From contig JAISCS010000053.1 in NCBI GenBank assembly GCA_031265365.1, positions 1-37,355 of the forward strand: DNA of 37,355 nucleotides. The letters run 5' to 3'. Below are positions 1-37,355 of this stretch, in pieces. Position 1 is the stretch's first letter. Each line of letters starts with the position of its first letter. Source of the DNA: Verrucomicrobiales bacterium. GTDB taxonomy: Bacteria; Verrucomicrobiota; Verrucomicrobiia; Methylacidiphilales; JAAUTS01. Made by a program: the position numbers and the translations under genes. The notes under the pieces were generated by a model, which was not told the DNA's origin, searched no databases, and was given only the letters and a program-made list of their open reading frames with translations.

Positions 1-118
1 TCAGCCATCAGCCATCAGCCATCAGCCATCAGCCATCAGCCATCAGCCATCAGCCATCAGCCATCAGCCATCAGCCATCAGCCATCAGCCATCAGCCATC
101 AGCCATCAGCCATCAGCC
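1..118. repeat. Tandem 7-bp repeat (TCAGCCA)n, about 16-17 units, truncated by the window start
   Basis: Uninterrupted tcagccatcagccatcagcc... read directly. Confidence 0.97.
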
Positions 119-9085: not shown

Positions 9086-9489
9086 TTGGTTCCTCATCGT
9101 GAGCAGTGGAAGCGCTCGGAATACTTCCCACCGCCCTCGGTTCTCGCGCACGCCAATTCCCATTCACGGAAGGGGAATTGTTCCGCGCCGACCACGCGCC
9201 ACGGCAATGCCACGGTTCATGGGATAGAACCACTTTACACTTGGCGATACTGGGTGATTAACGTTTGAACTGAAGGCCGAAAGGTTTAGGCCGGGGGCCG
9301 AAGGGTGAAGGAACGGTTAAGTACGGACTAACGGGTTGGCGGCAACTAATCCGCTGACCTTGGTCCAACTGCGGACATCCTGTCCGCCGGCGGATGGGAC
9401 GTCCGCGTTCCATGTTTTACTTGGCGGCTTGGCGCGAGGTTGGTTGGTTGGTTCTTGCCCGTTGACGGCGGGGTGGCTAGGCTTGGGAG

Positions 9490-27440: not shown

Positions 27441-27929
27441 TTAATAAACCGGCGTGCGCGCGTCCCGCTGCCAGTTGCTGTTGAGCGCGGCATTGTGCTG
27501 GGCGGCGACCCGCGTGATGCGGTCCATGAGCAACCGCTGGGTGTTTTTAAACCGCCCGTGAATGTTACTGGCATTGCCCAGCGATTCCGAACAGGCGTAA
27601 AAATCCAGTTGGAAGTTTTCAGGATTGTAGCGGATGGCAATTTCCAGCCACCAACCGCCGCCATCCTGCCGCGCGATGATCAACCCAGGCTCGACCACGC
27701 GGCCAATGATTTTGGCGCTGTCCCTGGTGTTGTACTCGCTAATGCCGAGCAGAATCAGCGACTTGGCCGTGTCCAGGGTGCCGACGGATTGCACAAAGGA
27801 ACCGCCCACCGTCTGCGCCGGATTGGTGGCGCATGACGTTAACCCCGCCGTCATCGCCAGCGCCGCGACGATTGACAACAGGCCGCCGACAGGAGCGGAC
27901 CACTTTTTGACCAATATGTTTTTGTTCAT
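27441..27929 (-). CDS. Putative lipoprotein
   Basis: N-terminal hydrophobic segment then AALAMTAGLTSCATNP lipobox-like; adjacent to the preceding lipoprotein. Confidence 0.6.
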   Translation of the reverse strand: MNKNILVKKWSAPVGGLLSIVAALAMTAGLTSCATNPAQTVGGSFVQSVGTLDTAKSLILLGISEYNTRDSAKIIGRVVEPGLIIARQDGGGWWLEIAIRYNPENFQLDFYACSESLGNASNIHGRFKNTQRLLMDRITRVAAQHNAALNSNWQRDARTPVY

Positions 27930-28105
27930 ACTTTTGTTTCCTGAAAAGAAATTAAATAGGCCACTTTGAACCCCGCGTCAACCTATTTATTTATATTTTT
28001 CGGTAGCGTATGCATACCCAGGCTGTTTTAAGGATTTCTGACGTTGGAACAGCCGAAAGCGGGAATTATTGCTGGTTTCAGCGTTCGGCTTTTCCATTTC
28101 CGGTA

Positions 28106-28260
28106 ACGCTGAACTACCCCGTCCGCATTCGCGGCCACCCCTTCACGGAAGGGGAATTTACTCACGCAAGGGTCAGGGGTAGTAGGGTTGGTTTCCGCGT
28201 CAGCGATTCCCCTTCCGTGAAGGGGTGGCGGCGCGAGCCGACGGGGTAGTTCAGCGTTCG
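28106..28260. repeat. Pair of inverted REP/BIME-like units
   Basis: aacgctgaactaccccgtccgcattcgcggccaccccttcacggaaggggaat ... gattccccttccgtgaaggggtggcggcgcgagccgacggggtagttcagcgttc. Confidence 0.9.
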
Positions 28261-28449
28261 CATAATTTCCGCCAACTGAGGTGCCATGATTTTTTTATTG
28301 CCCTCGTTGGCGAATCTGGTATTATTACGCAAGTCACGTCAAAAAACTTCGGCGACCTCGTGGCGCGCCGGCGGGCAGCATCCCGTTCACTGCGAGCCGT
28401 AAGGCGGCCCGGCTCCCGCGAAAGACCAGTTTTTTTGCCGGAGTTTTTT

Positions 28450-29184
28450 ATGCCTGTACCGATAACCATTACCGCTTCCACGTGGCCGGAGGGGGATTGT
28501 CCGTCGAGCTACCAGGAGATGCTCAACACCATCGCCAACAGCTTGATGGCGGAGTTTCCGCAAAATTTCACCAAACTCAACTTCGGCCCGGACACCCCGG
28601 GTGTCAATGACCAAGCCTACCCGTGGTTCCGGCAGGGCGGCGCCGACCCGGGCAAGCCGGACGGCCTCTATTATTATGTCGGCGGCAAGTGGGTCATGCA
28701 GCATCCCGTGCCCGCCGGTGCCGGCGAGCGCCGGTTTTGGTTCGGCGAGAGCGGGGCCTTGCAAACTTACGACGGCGGCGCCGCCGGCACCGTCACCGCC
28801 ACCACCGGCCCGATGTGGGAGATTGACGCCAACATGCAAGGCCGTTTTCCCATCGGTCGGGAGAGCGGCAAGGCGTGGGACCTCAACGGCGAGAAAGGCG
28901 GCGCGGAGACGGTCACGCTGACCGTGGCGCAGTTGCCGGCGCACACGCACACTTATCAGGATACAATTTGGCGCGAGTCCCAAAGCTGCCGTATTGGGGA
29001 TTATGTACTTGATACTGACCCGGCGGGCGATGGCAACCAAGGAATCGACGGCAACAACAGCACGTGGGTCAAGGACCGCGCCACCAAAAGCACCGGCAGC
29101 GGCAGCGCGGTCAGCATCATGCCGCCGTGGATTGCCGGCTACTGGATTAAACGCACCGCGCGGAAGTATTACGTGGCGTCGTGA
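28450..29184 (+). CDS. Phage tail-collar-like protein
   Basis: NMQGRFPIGRESGKAWDLNGEKGGAETVTLTVAQLPAHTHTYQD ... PPWIAGYWIKRTA resembles phage tail collar C-termini. Confidence 0.65.
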   Translation: MPVPITITASTWPEGDCPSSYQEMLNTIANSLMAEFPQNFTKLNFGPDTPGVNDQAYPWFRQGGADPGKPDGLYYYVGGKWVMQHPVPAGAGERRFWFGESGALQTYDGGAAGTVTATTGPMWEIDANMQGRFPIGRESGKAWDLNGEKGGAETVTLTVAQLPAHTHTYQDTIWRESQSCRIGDYVLDTDPAGDGNQGIDGNNSTWVKDRATKSTGSGSAVSIMPPWIAGYWIKRTARKYYVAS

Positions 29185-29228
29185 ATAAAAAATTTTGCCT
29201 TTATAATTTGAATTTTGGATTTTGAACC

Positions 29229-30215
29229 ATGAACTACCGCCACACGTGGGGACAACTAAAGGGAACCGTCGGCGTGCCAATCGGCCTGGACGCGGGGCAC
29301 GCCAACCTGTTGCCCCGCGTCAACGAGGCGTGCGAGGTACTGTGGAACGCGGGCGACTGGGTGGGCAAGTTCCAACGTTACAAACTCAAAATCAACGGCA
29401 CGCCGGGCCGCGCGTGCTTCATCACTTGGCCGCGCTTCGTTGAGACCATCGAGGCCGCGCGGTTGTGCGATGCCCCGCTGGGTGTCCGCAACGCGCAGTT
29501 TGAGTTTGTCGAGCACGCCACCGGCGACCTCGACCGCGCCTTCAGCGTGCTGCTCGGCGACCGGCAGGAGGTGTGCAGCTTTGATGATATGGACGAGGAC
29601 GGGCGGTTGCACCGGATTCAGGTGGAAACCCACCTGAGCGCCGACAATGACGGGCGCGTGTTGTTGCTTGGCCTCGACCCAAACGGCCACCGCGTCCGCA
29701 CCGTGCAAAACGGGGTGATGGCCGACGGCGAGGTGGTCGTCTTCAACGCCGCCGCCGCGCCGCTGACGGTGAGCAATTTCGCCAAACTGACCGGCGTCCA
29801 GTTCCTGACCAACCCGCGCGCGGGCCGTGTCACCCTTTACCAAGTCAACGAGAACGGCGGCGAAAAACCGCTCGCGGTTTACGACCCCGACGAGGAAGTG
29901 CCGGTGTACCGCCGCTCCGTGTTAAGCGGGGCGCGCGGCGGCGGCGCGCAGACGCTGTTGGTATTGGCACGAATGCGGTTCCAGCCGGTGAAACGCGACA
30001 CGGACTACGTGCAAATCAGCAGCGTCACCGCGATTAAAAACATGCTGGTGGCGTTGCAAAAGCGCGACAACGGCAAGCTGCAAGAGGCGGCGGCTTACCA
30101 GCAACTCGCCATCAACGCTTTGGACGACGAGTTGAAACAATATCGGGGCGCCGGCCCGGGCCGCGTGATGCGGTTCGCGGATGCCGGCGCGCCGAGCGGA
30201 GTGAACGTCATGTGA
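29229..30215 (+). CDS. Hypothetical protein, probable phage structural/tail component
   Basis: Intact ORF co-directional with the collar-like gene; no family recognised with certainty. Confidence 0.55.
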   Translation: MNYRHTWGQLKGTVGVPIGLDAGHANLLPRVNEACEVLWNAGDWVGKFQRYKLKINGTPGRACFITWPRFVETIEAARLCDAPLGVRNAQFEFVEHATGDLDRAFSVLLGDRQEVCSFDDMDEDGRLHRIQVETHLSADNDGRVLLLGLDPNGHRVRTVQNGVMADGEVVVFNAAAAPLTVSNFAKLTGVQFLTNPRAGRVTLYQVNENGGEKPLAVYDPDEEVPVYRRSVLSGARGGGAQTLLVLARMRFQPVKRDTDYVQISSVTAIKNMLVALQKRDNGKLQEAAAYQQLAINALDDELKQYRGAGPGRVMRFADAGAPSGVNVM

Positions 30216-30262
30216 GTTGACCCGACCGCCGGACCCTTGCGACGAAACAGGAGTTTGGGCAT

Positions 30263-30988
30263 ATGGGCATGTTTGACAGTTTGTTTGAGAAGAGCCAGGC
30301 GCCGGAGATGCCGACGCTGGACATTGACGCCTCGTTGCAAAAAACGGCGGACTGGAACAACAAGCAGACCACCGAGTGGATGAAGTCGTCGCCGGAGTTG
30401 AACACGTACATGCAGAACGAGTTCAACCGGTTAAGTCCGACCGTGCAGTCGTCGATGGACACCAACCGGCAAATGGGCACCCAGTTGGCGACGCAGGGCT
30501 ATACCGATGCGATGGGGGACTTCATGAAGTTCTTGCAAAGCGAGTCGCTGGCGGCGGGGGCGGCGTCCGGGATGCCGGTGGGCAGCGCGTTCACCGCCAA
30601 CCTCGGCGCCGGCATCGGGGCGCAGCAGTTGTTATCCAACCAGTTGCAGGGGTCGAATTTGTTGAACCAGGACGCGCAGCAGCAAAGCGCCCTCGCGCAG
30701 TATTTCATGCAGCCGTCGCTGGGTCTGTTGAGCCAGAACAGCATCGACCAGGGCACCATGCTGGAAGCCTACAAATACAACAACCAGATTGAGCAGCAGA
30801 ACACCATGATTCAGGCGCAGAACGCCAGCCAGCAGTCATGGTTTGATAATATGATTGCCCAAACCGTGGGCAGTTCCATTTCCGTCCCCTTCAGCTTGCA
30901 TCAAAACGCCAACGCGGTAACCAGCAACGCCCCGGCCATGGCCGCCGGGATGTTTGGCTCCATGTTCGGTAGCATGGGGGGCATTTGA
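30263..30988 (+). CDS. Hypothetical phage virion-like protein (Gln/Met/Asn-rich helical)
   Basis: MGMFDSLFEKSQAPEMPTLDIDASLQKTADWNNKQTTEWMKSSPEL...; composition like internal/tail virion proteins. Confidence 0.5.
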   Translation: MGMFDSLFEKSQAPEMPTLDIDASLQKTADWNNKQTTEWMKSSPELNTYMQNEFNRLSPTVQSSMDTNRQMGTQLATQGYTDAMGDFMKFLQSESLAAGAASGMPVGSAFTANLGAGIGAQQLLSNQLQGSNLLNQDAQQQSALAQYFMQPSLGLLSQNSIDQGTMLEAYKYNNQIEQQNTMIQAQNASQQSWFDNMIAQTVGSSISVPFSLHQNANAVTSNAPAMAAGMFGSMFGSMGGI

Positions 30989-31065
30989 TTTACCGCGGAG
31001 ACACGGAGAAAATTTTGAATTTTTAATTTTGCTTTTTGAACTTGAGTGACTGAAAGGAACGAACT

Positions 31066-31416
31066 ATGGACGCAGTAAACTTCGCCATGTGGCATAACCG
31101 GGATAAAATGGCCGATCATTTGAAAGAGGAGGACGACCGGATGTTCAAGGGCGTCGCCGCTGGCACCGCGATGGTAAAGGGCGGCGGCGGTGGCGGCCCA
31201 ATGAGCGACACCGAGGCGATGTCGCTGGCCAAGATGATGGATAGAAACCAGAACGCCGGCAGCGGCTACCCGACCTACAACTTTTCCAAAATGAGCGCGA
31301 CCCCGGCGCCAACCAAGATGAGTAGTGTGGACGCCGCCAACATGAACACCTCGCTGGGCGGCGGACTAGGCGGCTTGGGCGGCCTCGGCAACACCGGCTT
31401 CAGGATGACGGCTTGA
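31066..31416 (+). CDS. Small hypothetical protein of the phage-like module
   Basis: Intact ORF with Gly-rich C-terminus, tightly arranged with neighbours. Confidence 0.5.
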   Translation: MDAVNFAMWHNRDKMADHLKEEDDRMFKGVAAGTAMVKGGGGGGPMSDTEAMSLAKMMDRNQNAGSGYPTYNFSKMSATPAPTKMSSVDAANMNTSLGGGLGGLGGLGNTGFRMTA

Positions 31417-31429
31417 GAAAGGATTGACT

Positions 31430-32653
31430 ATGGCGGAAGCAAGCATCAGCGATTCGCTGGGGATTGACGAAATCCCGCGCAATGGCAGCGGGGCCGGCGA
31501 TAATTTTTCCACCGCGGCGCGGAGCGACGGCGCTGACCAACTGGCGGCGGGGCGAATGCTGCTGGCGGAGAACGAGGAAGACAAACACCAACAGCGGGTA
31601 AATTTTTACTATCAAGTCATCAAGCGCCAGGGCATGTCCGGGATGCGCAATCTTTTGCAATTGCAGCAAATCAACACGGCGGTAGCGCGGGAACAGATGG
31701 CGTACAAGGCGCAGGAGCTTCAGTTCGTGCGGGAGGAGCGGATGGCTAAATTTCAGGAAAGGCAAATGCAACGGCAGGAGCAAATTGACGGCGGGACGAT
31801 TGTCGCCAATGAAATCCTCGGCAACATGAACCCGGACGCCTCATATAAGGAAGTCATCCAAACTTTGAGCGCCGACCCGCGCACCAGGATTTTGCCAAAC
31901 TTAACCGCGCTAGCGTACCAGTTTAAAAATAATTCCATTGACCAGCAGTTGGTGGCGCAGCGTCAGCGGGATGAGCTTGAGACTAAAAGTGTGATTTTAT
32001 CCGCGATGCAAAACGGCATAAACGTCAATGATTTTATCAAAGCGCGAGAGAATTCTGACACGCCGGTAACATGGCAGGATTATAACGTGGAAAATTTACG
32101 CGAGGCAGTGGCGGCTAAAAATGAAGAAACGCGGATTGAGCAACTTAATCTTGATGCCGCCAAGGCCGGCGCGGCTGGCGCGGGCGATTTCAAAACTCCA
32201 CGGGAAGCTGCGGCAGGTATTTCCGCTGCCGTGCGTGGCAAGGCGCAAGCCAAGGCGGTTGACGAAGTGCGGTTGCGGCAGATGCAAAACGAGTTGAACA
32301 TTAACGGCGTAGTTACCGGCGGCGCGACGCCGGAGCAAATTGAAGTTGCTTATGTGAATTTACAGAACCAGTTGACGCCGGAAGAACGGAAGGCGATTGA
32401 CACCTACACCAAGGGGGAAAGCAAGGCGATTGCGGATGAAAACAATACCGCCGCCGAATCATTTCGCGCGAAAATTTCCGCGGTGTATGCCAATGCCGAC
32501 AAACGCCGCAAAGCGAACGCGGCGAAGACAAAAAGCAGCGCGACGGGTTCATCGTCAGCGCCGACAGTGAAAATCACCTCGCAAGCCGAATATGACAAGC
32601 TGCCGAGGGGCGCGAAATTCATGAGCGGTGGCAAAACCTACATCAAGCAATGA
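31430..32653 (+). CDS. Hypothetical coiled-coil-rich protein of the phage-like module
   Basis: MAEASISDSLGIDEIPRNG...; Gln/Arg/Glu-rich helices; stop overlaps the start of the giant ORF (ATGA). Confidence 0.6.
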   Translation: MAEASISDSLGIDEIPRNGSGAGDNFSTAARSDGADQLAAGRMLLAENEEDKHQQRVNFYYQVIKRQGMSGMRNLLQLQQINTAVAREQMAYKAQELQFVREERMAKFQERQMQRQEQIDGGTIVANEILGNMNPDASYKEVIQTLSADPRTRILPNLTALAYQFKNNSIDQQLVAQRQRDELETKSVILSAMQNGINVNDFIKARENSDTPVTWQDYNVENLREAVAAKNEETRIEQLNLDAAKAGAAGAGDFKTPREAAAGISAAVRGKAQAKAVDEVRLRQMQNELNINGVVTGGATPEQIEVAYVNLQNQLTPEERKAIDTYTKGESKAIADENNTAAESFRAKISAVYANADKRRKANAAKTKSSATGSSSAPTVKITSQAEYDKLPRGAKFMSGGKTYIKQ

Positions 32654-35600
32654 GCGATTTCGACCCCATCAAAGCGGGCGCCATCCTCGTGGAGGACGAG
32701 CCGTTCGACCCGATTAAGGTTGGTGCCGTGCTGATTGATGACGAGCCGTTTGACCCAATCAAAGTGGGAGCGATTGAGGTTGACGGCGCGCTGTCCGAGT
32801 TGGAAACCAAGGCGGGCATGGCATTGAAGTGGGCGCAAGAGCAATCAAACGGGCTGCTGGACAACCGCCTGACGCCCTATCATCACCTGCAAAAAAACCG
32901 GTCGCCCTACGGCGCTGACGCTGACGCGGTGGCCACGCGGCTGATGCGCGACAACCTGCGCGCGGAGGTGAGGAAGTTGAATCCTGAAATGACCGAGGCC
33001 GGGATTGACACCGAGCTTGCGCGCGGCACCGGTCTCATGGACTGGGTGGGTGGCGCGTTCAAAACGCTCGGCAAGACCGGCGCGCAATCCCTGGCTTATG
33101 GCGCGGAACTGGGCGGCTTCATGCTTGAGAGCGGCGCGGAATACATGCGGAAACTCATGCGGGGGCTGGCCGGCATCCCCGCCACGGACTATGCCGCGCG
33201 CGCCCAAAAACGCGAGACCTACCGGCGGGAGACACGTGATTACTACGTCAACAAACTTGGCCGGAGTGAGGAAGAGGCGGGCCGCCTAACCAATCAACTC
33301 GTGGATAAATTTTTCCCCGAACAACGCGCTAACGTCAAGGAAGCGTATGATTTGGCGTACCGCTACCGCCGGCAGACGGAGCAACAGCCGTGGGCGACCG
33401 ACGACCCGCACACGCCCAATGTGGTCAAAACCGTCTCCTCGGCCATCGCGCAGGGCATCCCGCAGTTGTTGTCGCTGGTCTCTTACAAAATTCCCGGACT
33501 CGGTCCAATGGTGGCGCTGAAGGATGTGCTTTCCGAAAGCTACAACCAACTGCGGACGGACAGCGAGCAAAGCGGGAAAAATTTGTCCGAGGATGAGTTG
33601 ATTGACGCGGCCATGTCCTCGGCGGCGTTCAAGGCATTGTTTGAGGTGGGGATGGACAAGTTCGCGTTAAAGGGCATCAGCGGCTTGTTCGGCAAAAAGG
33701 CGTCGGGCGCGGTGACGGCGGAACTGGCGAAGGAAACGGCGAAGAAAGAGGCCCAAAAAGGCTTTGTGCGCCGCGCCGCCGAGGCCTATTTGAAACAGCA
33801 AGCCGTCGAGCAACCGACGGAATTGATTCAGGATTATTCCGACAAATTTTTCGGCGCGCGGCTGGGTTTGGAGCAGGATTGGTATTCGTGGGCTGAACTG
33901 CGCGACCGCACCCTGTCGGTGGCCTTCATGCCGCAAGGCGCGGTGGCGGCGGTCGGCGAGGCCAGAGCCAGACAGAACAACCTGCCGCTGACCGCCGAGG
34001 CGCTTAAACAACAGCACCAGCAATTCCAGGAAAAAATCCGCGCGGCGACCAATGGTTTTTATCGCGGCGAGGACACGGTTGACCAAGCCGCCAAAAAAAT
34101 GCGGCAGGCCGGCTTTTCTGACACGGACATCCAAATTTGGCGCAACCGGTTGACGACGCCGGCGCTGGCGGTGAATTCTGACGGCGGCATGAGGCAACAA
34201 GACAGCCAGCCGCTGTACGGAGCGGACGGCAAGATTAACAGCGACGCGGCATTGACCATCGCCGGCATTGATTTCAGTAACGGCCTCATCACCCTGGACG
34301 AGGCGACGGCGGTCAATGAGCGTTTTCAAGGCAAGGAACTCGCCGAAGAGTTTCGCAAAATCATGTTGCCCTACGTCAACGAACAGGGCTATTACGACCA
34401 GAAGGGGCGGGAGCGCGCGGCGGCGGACGCGGTCGGCGCAGAGATTGAGGGGGAAAATAATCCCGGCGCCCCAACCGTCACCGCTGACGGTGAGCAGCCG
34501 TCAGCCCCCGACAACCCCGTGCCGGAGAGCGACGCGACGGTGGCGGTGCAGATGGACTGGCTGAACAAGGGCAAGCGCGACGCGGTGTTTTTCACGCCGG
34601 GCACGACCATCCCCGCGACGCCCGAAGGCTTGGCGCGGCTGGACACGGCGCGCGGGACGTTCATCTACAACCCGCTCGTGCACTCCGAGGAATCGCTGAA
34701 CAACGCGGTGAAGAACGACACGCTGGGCGACGTGCTCGGCTACGGCATCCCGCGCAAGCCGAGCGACGCGAACATCGCCGGCGTGATTGTTCTACGTGGA
34801 ACGGACGGCACGGAGAAGCTGAGCGTCGTCACCGATGACGCGCACCGCCAGCAAGTCGAGGACAACCTGAACGCGCTGGCCGAGGAAGGCGACACGGTGA
34901 CGTTGGAGCCGACGGAGGACAAGGTGCTGGCGGAGCGGCGCGAGCAACTTAGCCGACAGTTCCCCGGTGTGGACTGGCGGAACAAGCCCGTGCCGGCGAC
35001 ACCGCAAAAATCATCGCCAGCGTCCGGCAATTTCCAAACCGCCTGGGAGAAGACCGCGCGGCTGCTGACGCCCATCGGCGGGACGGTGCGGCGGGTGAAC
35101 GCCCCGGCGAAATCGTCCGGCTTTGAGGCGTGGTTCACGCTGGATGAGCACGGCCATCCGCAGGTTTATGTCGGCGTGGACGAGGCGATGGTGAACAGTC
35201 ATCGGCAGAAATTCCAAAACGAAGAAGAGTTCAACGAGTGGGTCAACCGCGCGTTCAACGAGGAGTATCTCCACGCCGCCGACCTTGAGAGCTTGCGGCG
35301 CAAATGGGAAGCGGGCGGCAGCGCAGGCGGCTTTCATGAATTTCTTAACCACGAACGCGCTAAACTATGGCGCGGCCTGAGCGAGGCCGACCGGCGTATG
35401 ATTGAGGCCATCTACGGCGACTTTGACCCAAAGGCCACCGACGCGCAAAAGGCGCAGGAACTATTGCGGATACTGCTGCAACTGCAACGCGACGGGAAGC
35501 TGACGGAGTTTGCGGGCAGACTGAGCGCGCCGGGCCGGAGCGCGTTGCGGGCGTGGTTGCAACAGCTTGCCGACTTCATTAAAAACACCTTGCGGGCGGC

Positions 35601-37355
35601 GAACAACACGGAACTACAGACGGCGCTGGATGAAATCAACGCGGTGCTGGCCGAGGTGGATGCGGCATTGAAAGAACAATCCCCAACGACAAATTCCGAA
35701 TCCAATATCACCGTCAGCGGTGAGGAAATTAACGCCGTCGGTGACGCGCCGTTCGCCGCCGCGCCGCATGGTGGTGAAAGCGTGGCGAAACTTGAGCGGG
35801 TGCGTAACGCGGTCAGGGCGGTTGCCGAGGGCGCGGAAGAAGGCGTGGCTAGGAATTTGCGCCCCGATCTCGTGATTTACGGCGGCTCCGCTGATGTGGT
35901 GTTCCCGTGGGGCAATGACCGATTTGGGTTGAAAAAAATAGCGACGCGGCGTGGTGCGGAGGTGTTGAATCAGGTGTTGCGAACAGTCGCGCTGGGTGAG
36001 GTCGAGCGGCATGGCGACACCAAGAAAACCGTCAATCTCGCGCTGGGTGATTACCGCGCCGTGCTGTCGCTGGACGAGCATGGGAAACAAAAGACTTGGT
36101 TGCTGACCGGCTGGGAAGAGGGAAGACCCGATGCCACCGGCGAGGTTAGTGCTCAAACCGAGGCTACGCAACCGACCCCTACATTTAGTCGTGACCGATT
36201 GGGAGCGGGTCTCAACGATATAATTGACACGGAAAGGCGTTCTGTCAATTCCAAATCCACCGCCGCCGGTGACGCGCCGTTCGCCGCCGCGCCGGAACGT
36301 CGCTTGCCAAGCCGCGCCGTTGATGGCAGTATCTCCCGCATGTCCGACCCCGCACGGGTCGCCCAAGACAACCGGACTTCATTCCCCGTGGGCGAGCAGA
36401 ATGAAGCCACGCGCAAAGCCGCCAACGGCCAGCCGTCCAATCTGACTGCGGCGGAATATGCCCGCGCCACCTCACCGGAGTTCAAGGCGCGATATGGGGA
36501 TTGGGAGGCGTTGGCAAAAATTAACGCGGTGCGGAATAGTGAGCCATTGAAAGTTAATGCGTTGGCGACAGCACCGAGTGAGCGTGAGGTCAAAAATCTG
36601 TTTTCCACTTTCGGTGAAATTAAAAACGATAAGGACGGGCGGCAGGTTATTTTCCCCAACCGCACCGTCGGAAAAATTCTGCGGCACAGGGGTTTTAACG
36701 TCGGGAGAATTGCTAAGGATTTGCCGGTTATCTTCCGTCGCACAATTCCAGCCTGGAGTGAAAACTACCAAGCGAAGCCCGGTCATAAAGACCATAGCAG
36801 TAACATCAAAGCCTATCACAATTACGTTGGAAAATTCGCTGACGGTGAAGCCACCTATTTCATCCGCTTCACGTTGCATGAGGAAAACAAGCATCGTGGC
36901 GACGGAAAAAACAACCTCCATTCGACGTTCATTTCTGATGTTGAGATTTACCGGCAAAAACAAGGCGCGGATTTTGCTCGTGTCCACGTTAGCAACATGG
37001 GCGTAGTAAAAGGCGCGCCTTACGATGAAAAACTATCACGGTGGCTGTCGTCTGTCAACCCTCAAAATATAAAAATCCCGCTAGACGAAAACGGCGAGCC
37101 GGTGATGAGCGCCATTGACCAATCCCACCCTAATGCTACGCGTCCCAATGGGGGGACGCCGTTATTTGCCGCCGCGCCGGAAAGACGCTTGCCAAGGCGG
37201 AACGAGAACGGCAGTATTTCCCGCATGTCCGACCCGCAGCGGGCCGCCAATCAACACAACCGGACTTCACCCGCTGGCGGATTAAGTGAAGCCGCGCCGC
37301 GTCTCGCCGCCAACGGCCAGACCTCCAACCTGACTGCGGCGGAATATGCCCGCGC
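32650..37355 (+). CDS. Giant phage 'polyvalent'-type protein, open to window end (partial, >1,560 codons); C-terminal BECR-nuclease-like and LPD-like modules
   Basis: Frame read codon by codon from ATG AGC GAT TTC GAC CCC ATC AAA without a stop to 37355; absent from the ORF track because it has no stop in the window. Confidence 0.85.
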   Translation, partial: MSDFDPIKAGAILVEDEPFDPIKVGAVLIDDEPFDPIKVGAIEVDGALSELETKAGMALKWAQEQSNGLLDNRLTPYHHLQKNRSPYGADADAVATRLMRDNLRAEVRKLNPEMTEAGIDTELARGTGLMDWVGGAFKTLGKTGAQSLAYGAELGGFMLESGAEYMRKLMRGLAGIPATDYAARAQKRETYRRETRDYYVNKLGRSEEEAGRLTNQLVDKFFPEQRANVKEAYDLAYRYRRQTEQQPWATDDPHTPNVVKTVSSAIAQGIPQLLSLVSYKIPGLGPMVALKDVLSESYNQLRTDSEQSGKNLSEDELIDAAMSSAAFKALFEVGMDKFALKGISGLFGKKASGAVTAELAKETAKKEAQKGFVRRAAEAYLKQQAVEQPTELIQDYSDKFFGARLGLEQDWYSWAELRDRTLSVAFMPQGAVAAVGEARARQNNLPLTAEALKQQHQQFQEKIRAATNGFYRGEDTVDQAAKKMRQAGFSDTDIQIWRNRLTTPALAVNSDGGMRQQDSQPLYGADGKINSDAALTIAGIDFSNGLITLDEATAVNERFQGKELAEEFRKIMLPYVNEQGYYDQKGRERAAADAVGAEIEGENNPGAPTVTADGEQPSAPDNPVPESDATVAVQMDWLNKGKRDAVFFTPGTTIPATPEGLARLDTARGTFIYNPLVHSEESLNNAVKNDTLGDVLGYGIPRKPSDANIAGVIVLRGTDGTEKLSVVTDDAHRQQVEDNLNALAEEGDTVTLEPTEDKVLAERREQLSRQFPGVDWRNKPVPATPQKSSPASGNFQTAWEKTARLLTPIGGTVRRVNAPAKSSGFEAWFTLDEHGHPQVYVGVDEAMVNSHRQKFQNEEEFNEWVNRAFNEEYLHAADLESLRRKWEAGGSAGGFHEFLNHERAKLWRGLSEADRRMIEAIYGDFDPKATDAQKAQELLRILLQLQRDGKLTEFAGRLSAPGRSALRAWLQQLADFIKNTLRAANNTELQTALDEINAVLAEVDAALKEQSPTTNSESNITVSGEEINAVGDAPFAAAPHGGESVAKLERVRNAVRAVAEGAEEGVARNLRPDLVIYGGSADVVFPWGNDRFGLKKIATRRGAEVLNQVLRTVALGEVERHGDTKKTVNLALGDYRAVLSLDEHGKQKTWLLTGWEEGRPDATGEVSAQTEATQPTPTFSRDRLGAGLNDIIDTERRSVNSKSTAAGDAPFAAAPERRLPSRAVDGSISRMSDPARVAQDNRTSFPVGEQNEATRKAANGQPSNLTAAEYARATSPEFKARYGDWEALAKINAVRNSEPLKVNALATAPSEREVKNLFSTFGEIKNDKDGRQVIFPNRTVGKILRHRGFNVGRIAKDLPVIFRRTIPAWSENYQAKPGHKDHSSNIKAYHNYVGKFADGEATYFIRFTLHEENKHRGDGKNNLHSTFISDVEIYRQKQGADFARVHVSNMGVVKGAPYDEKLSRWLSSVNPQNIKIPLDENGEPVMSAIDQSHPNATRPNGGTPLFAAAPERRLPRRNENGSISRMSDPQRAANQHNRTSPAGGLSEAAPRLAANGQTSNLTAAEYAR

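Follow-up and report, generated by a model that had tools for sequence, protein, structure and literature searches.

A linker of about 65 residues that recurs ahead of successive modules in one reading frame raises the question of whether such repeats are joints at which parts of a protein are exchanged between mobile elements. The assembly and renewal of injected multi-effector proteins have so far been inferred from mosaic domain architectures; an exchange point located to the base, together with natural pairs one module apart, makes in-frame exchange of cartridges directly testable. We address the question in a window of 37,355 nucleotides (the whole stretch of DNA analysed), which is a complete contig (G000:C28:1-37355) of a Verrucomicrobiales genome of 2.76 Mb in 213 contigs, and in which the third linker is truncated at the contig end.

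The repeat and the gene that carries it

As the sequence-only reading had described, two linker copies (36265-36475 and 37151-37355) and a short form (35739-35766) lie in a single open frame, within one codon of these limits, and the similarity between linkers extends to the DNA level, far above chance (blastn of linker against linker, E = 3e-38). Positions 36280-36363 and 37165-37248 share 80% DNA identity over 84 nt, 36418-36467 and 37306-37355 share 94% over 50 nt, and the short form (35733-35766) matches 36261-36294 at 33 of 34 nt. The repeat ahead of the modules thus stood, but not the unity of the 65-residue linker: comparison of the copies identifies it as a composite of half A (about 36 codons, from MSDP to GGLSEA) and half B (AANGxPSNLTxxEYARATSPEFKARYGDWE), of which only half A is the shared joint. 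The copy at 37151 has the typical linker form, and that at 36265-36475 has a poor half A, with SFPVGEQNEAT where others have S-PAGGLSEAAP. The features of the locus are the following.

28225..29184, plus strand: phage tail/baseplate-type protein (phrog_8763, E = 3e-10), upstream
32650..37355, plus strand: phage large polyvalent protein open frame (frame 32650-37353), 1568 aa to the contig end without a stop, very likely continuing in C138
32659..32768, plus strand: 45-bp repeat, 2.4 copies, encoding FDPIKVGAxLxxDEP at the polyvalent protein N-terminus
35733..35766, plus strand: short linker form GDAPFAAAP, marking the start of module 1
35767..36240, plus strand: module 1 core, PBECR1-like, predicted RNase-fold, 57% identity to a viral-contig module
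36301..36408, plus strand: linker 2 half A, RLPSRAVDGSISRMSDPARVAQDNRTSFPVGEQNEA, divergent copy
36415..36507, plus strand: linker 2 half B, KAANGQPSNLTAAEYARATSPEFKARYGDWE, leader of module 2
36508..37047, plus strand: module 2 core, LPD3 (PF18798, Pfam E = 1e-7), predicted helix-helix and four long strands
37051..37107, plus strand: module suffix, SVNPQNIKIPLDENGEPVM, corresponding to the latter half of the leader of ADP-ribosyltransferases (NPxxASKVVDENGEPLVVYHGT); transferase absent
37186..37293, plus strand: linker 3 half A, RLPRRNENGSISRMSDPQRAANQHNRTSPAGGLSEA, joint where the modules of relatives change
37303..37355, plus strand: linker 3 half B, truncated by the contig end; very likely completed in C138, then PBECR3

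A further FKxxxGDWE-type module had been predicted past 37355, and one is present: the first 100 bases of another contig (G000:C138:1-100) are identical to the last 100 of the window, and C138 completes half B in frame, followed by PBECR3 and then LPD37. The two contigs were analysed separately; from the exact 100-bp overlap their adjacency is very likely, different linker copies in this genome having at most 61 identical bases in common, less than the overlap.

Domain content identifies the repeat-bearing frame as encoding a phage "large polyvalent protein", with several predicted effector domains per chain. This class is defined by Iyer et al. 2017 (PMC5512222, main text) with LPD, PBECR, ART-PolyVal and MuF_C domains. 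Window and C138 together encode, in order, a PBECR1-like module, a linker, an LPD3 module, a linker and a PBECR3 module, and multiple domains of the polyvalent set occur in one polypeptide (LPD3 in the window, PBECR3 and LPD37 in C138, three LPD3 plus ART-PolyVal below cut-off in contig C45). Module 1 has no Pfam match. A polyvalent protein of 3089 aa, encoded on viral contig IMGVR_UViG_3300037471_001742, has a module with 57% identity to it; this relative gives a weak PBECR1 match (E = 0.024, below cut-off), and the viral protein is without these linkers.

The AlphaFold model of 552 aa including the linkers was unusable (pLDDT 40), save that the linkers lack predicted structure. Modelled alone (pTM 0.69), module 2 has two helices and four long strands in its well-predicted part, and the structures closest to it are those of viral polyvalent LPD3 proteins; it matched none of the solved structures, so that no enzyme activity can be read from the model, and a profile search against PDB sequences returned no matches. 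The module cores may act as effectors or enzymes; PBECR activity is a prediction of the literature. Embedded metallopeptidase domains are common, though not universal, in polyvalent proteins; by eye, HExxH-like motifs were seen in C45 (HEIVGHHG) and in the congener G004 and none in the window protein, and there were no Pfam peptidase matches.

Directly after the polyvalent gene of contig C182 lie genes for an SU10-type portal (PF23899) and a major capsid protein. Portal and capsid genes were not identified within the window, where the one tail-type gene, upstream of the polyvalent gene, probably belongs to the same element. This gene context and the main text of PMC5512222 suggest that virions package the polyvalent protein and inject it together with the DNA. 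Short repeated peptides mark the N-termini of both long polyvalent proteins, FDPIKVGAxLxxDEP in the window (32659-32768) and DIDxFIKxNQ in the C45 protein (L011), and are possibly packaging signals. The latter protein (P0004, 3760 aa) also contains, between its LPD3 modules, a kinase-like stretch (residues about 1470-1700) that has no Pfam match and by eye resembles the polyvalent kinases described in Verrucomicrobia.

Module changes at the end of half A

Linker copies occur on five contigs of this genome: C28 (two, the second continuing in C138), C45 (two, within a 3760-aa frame), C182 and C55, the last with half A only. Congeners carry half-copies, half A in G003:C267 and G003:C70 and half B in G004:C226, whose sequence is the same as that of MAG contig JAITHY010000143.1 from the same genus (Verrucomicrobiales bacterium Pc512_bin95); half A is known from two species only. 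Collection scans used a five-copy linker alignment, a seven-copy alignment being too diverse. Linker searches of viral contigs and of the L063 record itself found no matches, and neither did searches with P0001 and the gene at 30263 among annotated phages; the full linker therefore appears confined to this genus among the sequences searched. Searched by tblastn, genes at 27441-32653 had no match in the other loci with linkers that were compared, and the elements sharing the linker may therefore not be closely related as a whole.

Contigs differ in the modules they carry and in the order of these. As had been proposed for related loci, content varies between conserved linkers, and in two natural pairs the change falls at the same linker point. 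Between G000:C55 and G003:C70 the left flanks are 93.7% identical over 429 bp, ending at the 3' end of half A, and the right flanks 100% identical over 140 bp, from QRPGGGTQ onward, whereas the cores they enclose are unrelated, LPD3 (545 bp) in C55 and MuF_C (590 bp) in C70. Both frames are open, that of C55 being truncated past the right flank, and the longest unbroken match of the pair, 113 bp, lies on half A (P = 0.005 under random mismatch placement). In the second pair, half A of G003:C267, which looks like a remnant, continues straight into an LPD3 core; in G000:C182 the corresponding half A (88% identical) and core (89% identical over 558 bp) flank a half B-LPD3-LDENGEPVM cassette that is absent from G003:C267. 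A 24-bp direct repeat, CCGCTGGCGGATTAAGTGA(A/G)GCCG, stands at both ends of this cassette, its two copies differing by a single mismatch. The end of half A is therefore followed by half B in one case, by an LPD3 core in another and by MuF_C in a third. Linker-mediated swapping and addition of modules was thus upheld insofar as the differences fall exactly at the joint; recombination itself we infer from these natural pairs, only two in number, all from metagenome-type assemblies and some from fragmentary loci.

The halves also differ in how they are conserved. Among four full copies, half A had a pS of 0.07 and a pN of 0.04 and half B a pS of 0.39 and a pN of 0.04, with a bootstrap interval of 0.14 to 0.52 for the difference in pS. 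The divergent window copy (36301-36408) was excluded from this contrast by a choice made after the data were seen; with it, pS was 0.18 versus 0.36 and the difference was not significant (95% interval -0.03 to 0.37). Half A is conserved at the DNA level in most copies, and half B at the protein level. The two C45 linkers are 87% identical in DNA, yet their LPD3 cores are 28% identical in protein, and the first of these cores is closer to one from a different family of the class (48%) than to the other core of C45, a contrast that suggests old cores and young linkers. Most cores are remote LPD3 relatives, with roughly 23-39% identity between most of them.

The half B motif leads directly into NPxxASKVVDENGEPLVVYHGT and then an ADP-ribosyltransferase (ART) domain in phages that were isolated or assembled, namely Shewanella Y11, Pseudoalteromonas Y7, Bacteroides BF1-TP2, the crAss-like cr85_1 and cr271_1, and Pasteurella Pmp11; a Pfam scan of all but Pmp11 confirmed the ART domain in each. 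In four genomes of the class (L031, L032, L034, L035) GDWE and DENGEP are separated by an LPD3 core, and the transferase is still present downstream. In the window's genus the suffix NPxNIKxxLDENGEPVM is kept, no transferase follows and a new linker stands in its place; a PBECR3 core can also occupy the slot within the split leader. These alignments identify half B as the leader of one cartridge type, not a joint, with its second half (NPxNIKxxLDENGEP) across the core. Insertion into the leader would have come before loss of the transferase. Conserved from crAss-like to Shewanella to Verrucomicrobiota phages and placed before different cores, the half B leader offers a marker for phage effector modules.

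Probable recombination at half A and other explanations of the repeat

We regard it as quite likely that the repeat marks module joints and that half A is shared coding DNA for in-frame recombination between elements. Phages or prophages of this Verrucomicrobiota genus, each encoding a polyvalent chain of predicted effector domains that the virion would carry and deliver along with the DNA, would recombine in frame at half A, and the sequence downstream of its 3' end (GGLSEA) would be replaced, inserted or lost with the gene unbroken. The cause may be homologous or short-homology recombination when related phages or prophages meet.

The repeated frames, with several cores from one remote LPD3 superfamily, could also have arisen by simple tandem duplication, in which the cores diverged after in-place copying of one linker-plus-module unit, with no exchange between elements. 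However, neighbouring linkers are 79-87% DNA-identical while neighbouring cores are unrelated (LPD3 versus PBECR3) or about 28% identical in protein. The contrast between linkers and cores in C45, where a core is nearer to that of another family (48%) than to its neighbour, is not explained by simple in-place duplication, and flanks that are nearly identical enclose LPD3 in one species and MuF_C in another; the PBECR3 and MuF_C modules contradict duplication, which we consider very unlikely as an account of the whole. False module combinations would also result if metagenome reads had been joined into chimeras at the repeated linkers, and all the genomes are fragmented assemblies (213 contigs here), with the window itself ending inside a linker. 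Such an artefact seems the most improbable of all, given that linker copies share at most 61 identical bases against a contig overlap of 100 bp, that frames are open through every junction, that both flanks of the swap are conserved between two species and that the two direct-repeat copies around the insertion differ by a substitution.

Linkers might instead be kept alike by the needs of the protein, for instance as processing sites of a built-in metallopeptidase or as ejection signals, irrespective of exchange. The strong protein-level constraint on half B (pN 0.04, pS 0.39) and its recurrence in unrelated phages agree with this, as do the linkers' predicted lack of structure, at very low confidence, and the view, in the main text of PMC5512222, that zincin peptidases process polyvalent proteins. 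Half A, the site of the breakpoints, is nevertheless equally conserved at synonymous and other sites in the four copies (pS 0.07, pN 0.04), and the swap and the insertion at half A are left unexplained. We find this unlikely as an explanation of the repeat, and such constraint may hold for half B alongside exchange at half A. That half A is a DNA-level exchange site maintained for in-frame cartridge trading within the genus, perhaps aided by a dispersed 12-mer (CGCTGACGGTGA), is in our judgement quite unlikely, in distinction from the recombination at half A that we favour.

Known systems and dispersed repeats

The array had been likened to polymorphic toxins, with which it shares constant segments that border variable effector domains and cassettes that are replaced at the border. 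The protein nonetheless belongs with the phage polyvalent proteins and not with polymorphic toxins: its variable modules are internal, several per protein, and followed by further domains, whereas polymorphic toxins carry a single C-terminal toxin tip behind constant trafficking domains, and its context is one of virion genes, not of a secretion system. Like other phage large polyvalent proteins, it is mosaic, very long and multidomain (LPD3, LPD37, PBECR3), and the linker-bearing polyvalent gene of C182 adjoins virion genes.

Mosaicism of polyvalent proteins is already known and module or cassette exchange has been proposed, the main text of PMC5512222 suggesting cassette recombination for those of Verrucomicrobium spinosum and counting up to 50 domain combinations in Helicobacter jhp1044, where PBECR and LPD3 domains are, as here, repeatedly duplicated and rearranged in orthologous phage proteins. 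Unlike in the proteins described in that text, a defined coding repeat serves here as the exchange point, before/after pairs are available, and an LPD3 or PBECR3 core is set inside a split ART leader. The host group also differs from that of jhp1044, for which the main text describes no linker-bounded exchange point; linkers have 0 occurrences in it. The joint, the natural before/after pairs and LPD3 within the split transferase leader are new here, and term searches of the same main text found neither a defined joint nor the split-leader arrangement.

The 12-mer CGCTGACGGTGA has 761 copies in this 2.76-Mb genome (386 forward, 375 reverse), in the window for example at 198-209, 2647-2658, 29761-29772, 34482-34493 and 36837-36848. 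Three congeners have 742-1088 copies, a fourth has 19, and the order's other genera have 0-11; the reversed-sequence control gives at most 1. It looks like a genus-specific candidate DNA uptake sequence, and ComEC is present in all five genomes; a literature search found no relevant paper linking uptake sequences to Verrucomicrobia. The 12-mer lies exactly within two copies of half A and within two of the module suffixes. No enrichment in phage genes over the chromosome was found, the densities being roughly similar, which appears unlike the expectation for a classic uptake sequence, and we therefore do not claim uptake-driven exchange.

A hairpin-forming dispersed repeat, AATTCCCCTTCCGTGAAGGGGTGG...GGGGTAGTTCAGCGTT, lies at 9163, 10835, 15731, 15830, 28142 and 28211 of the window and also in L011, L012, L013 and L014, and is apparently mostly intergenic. 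The contig starts with a perfect TCAGCCA heptamer array of 16.9 copies (window 1-118).
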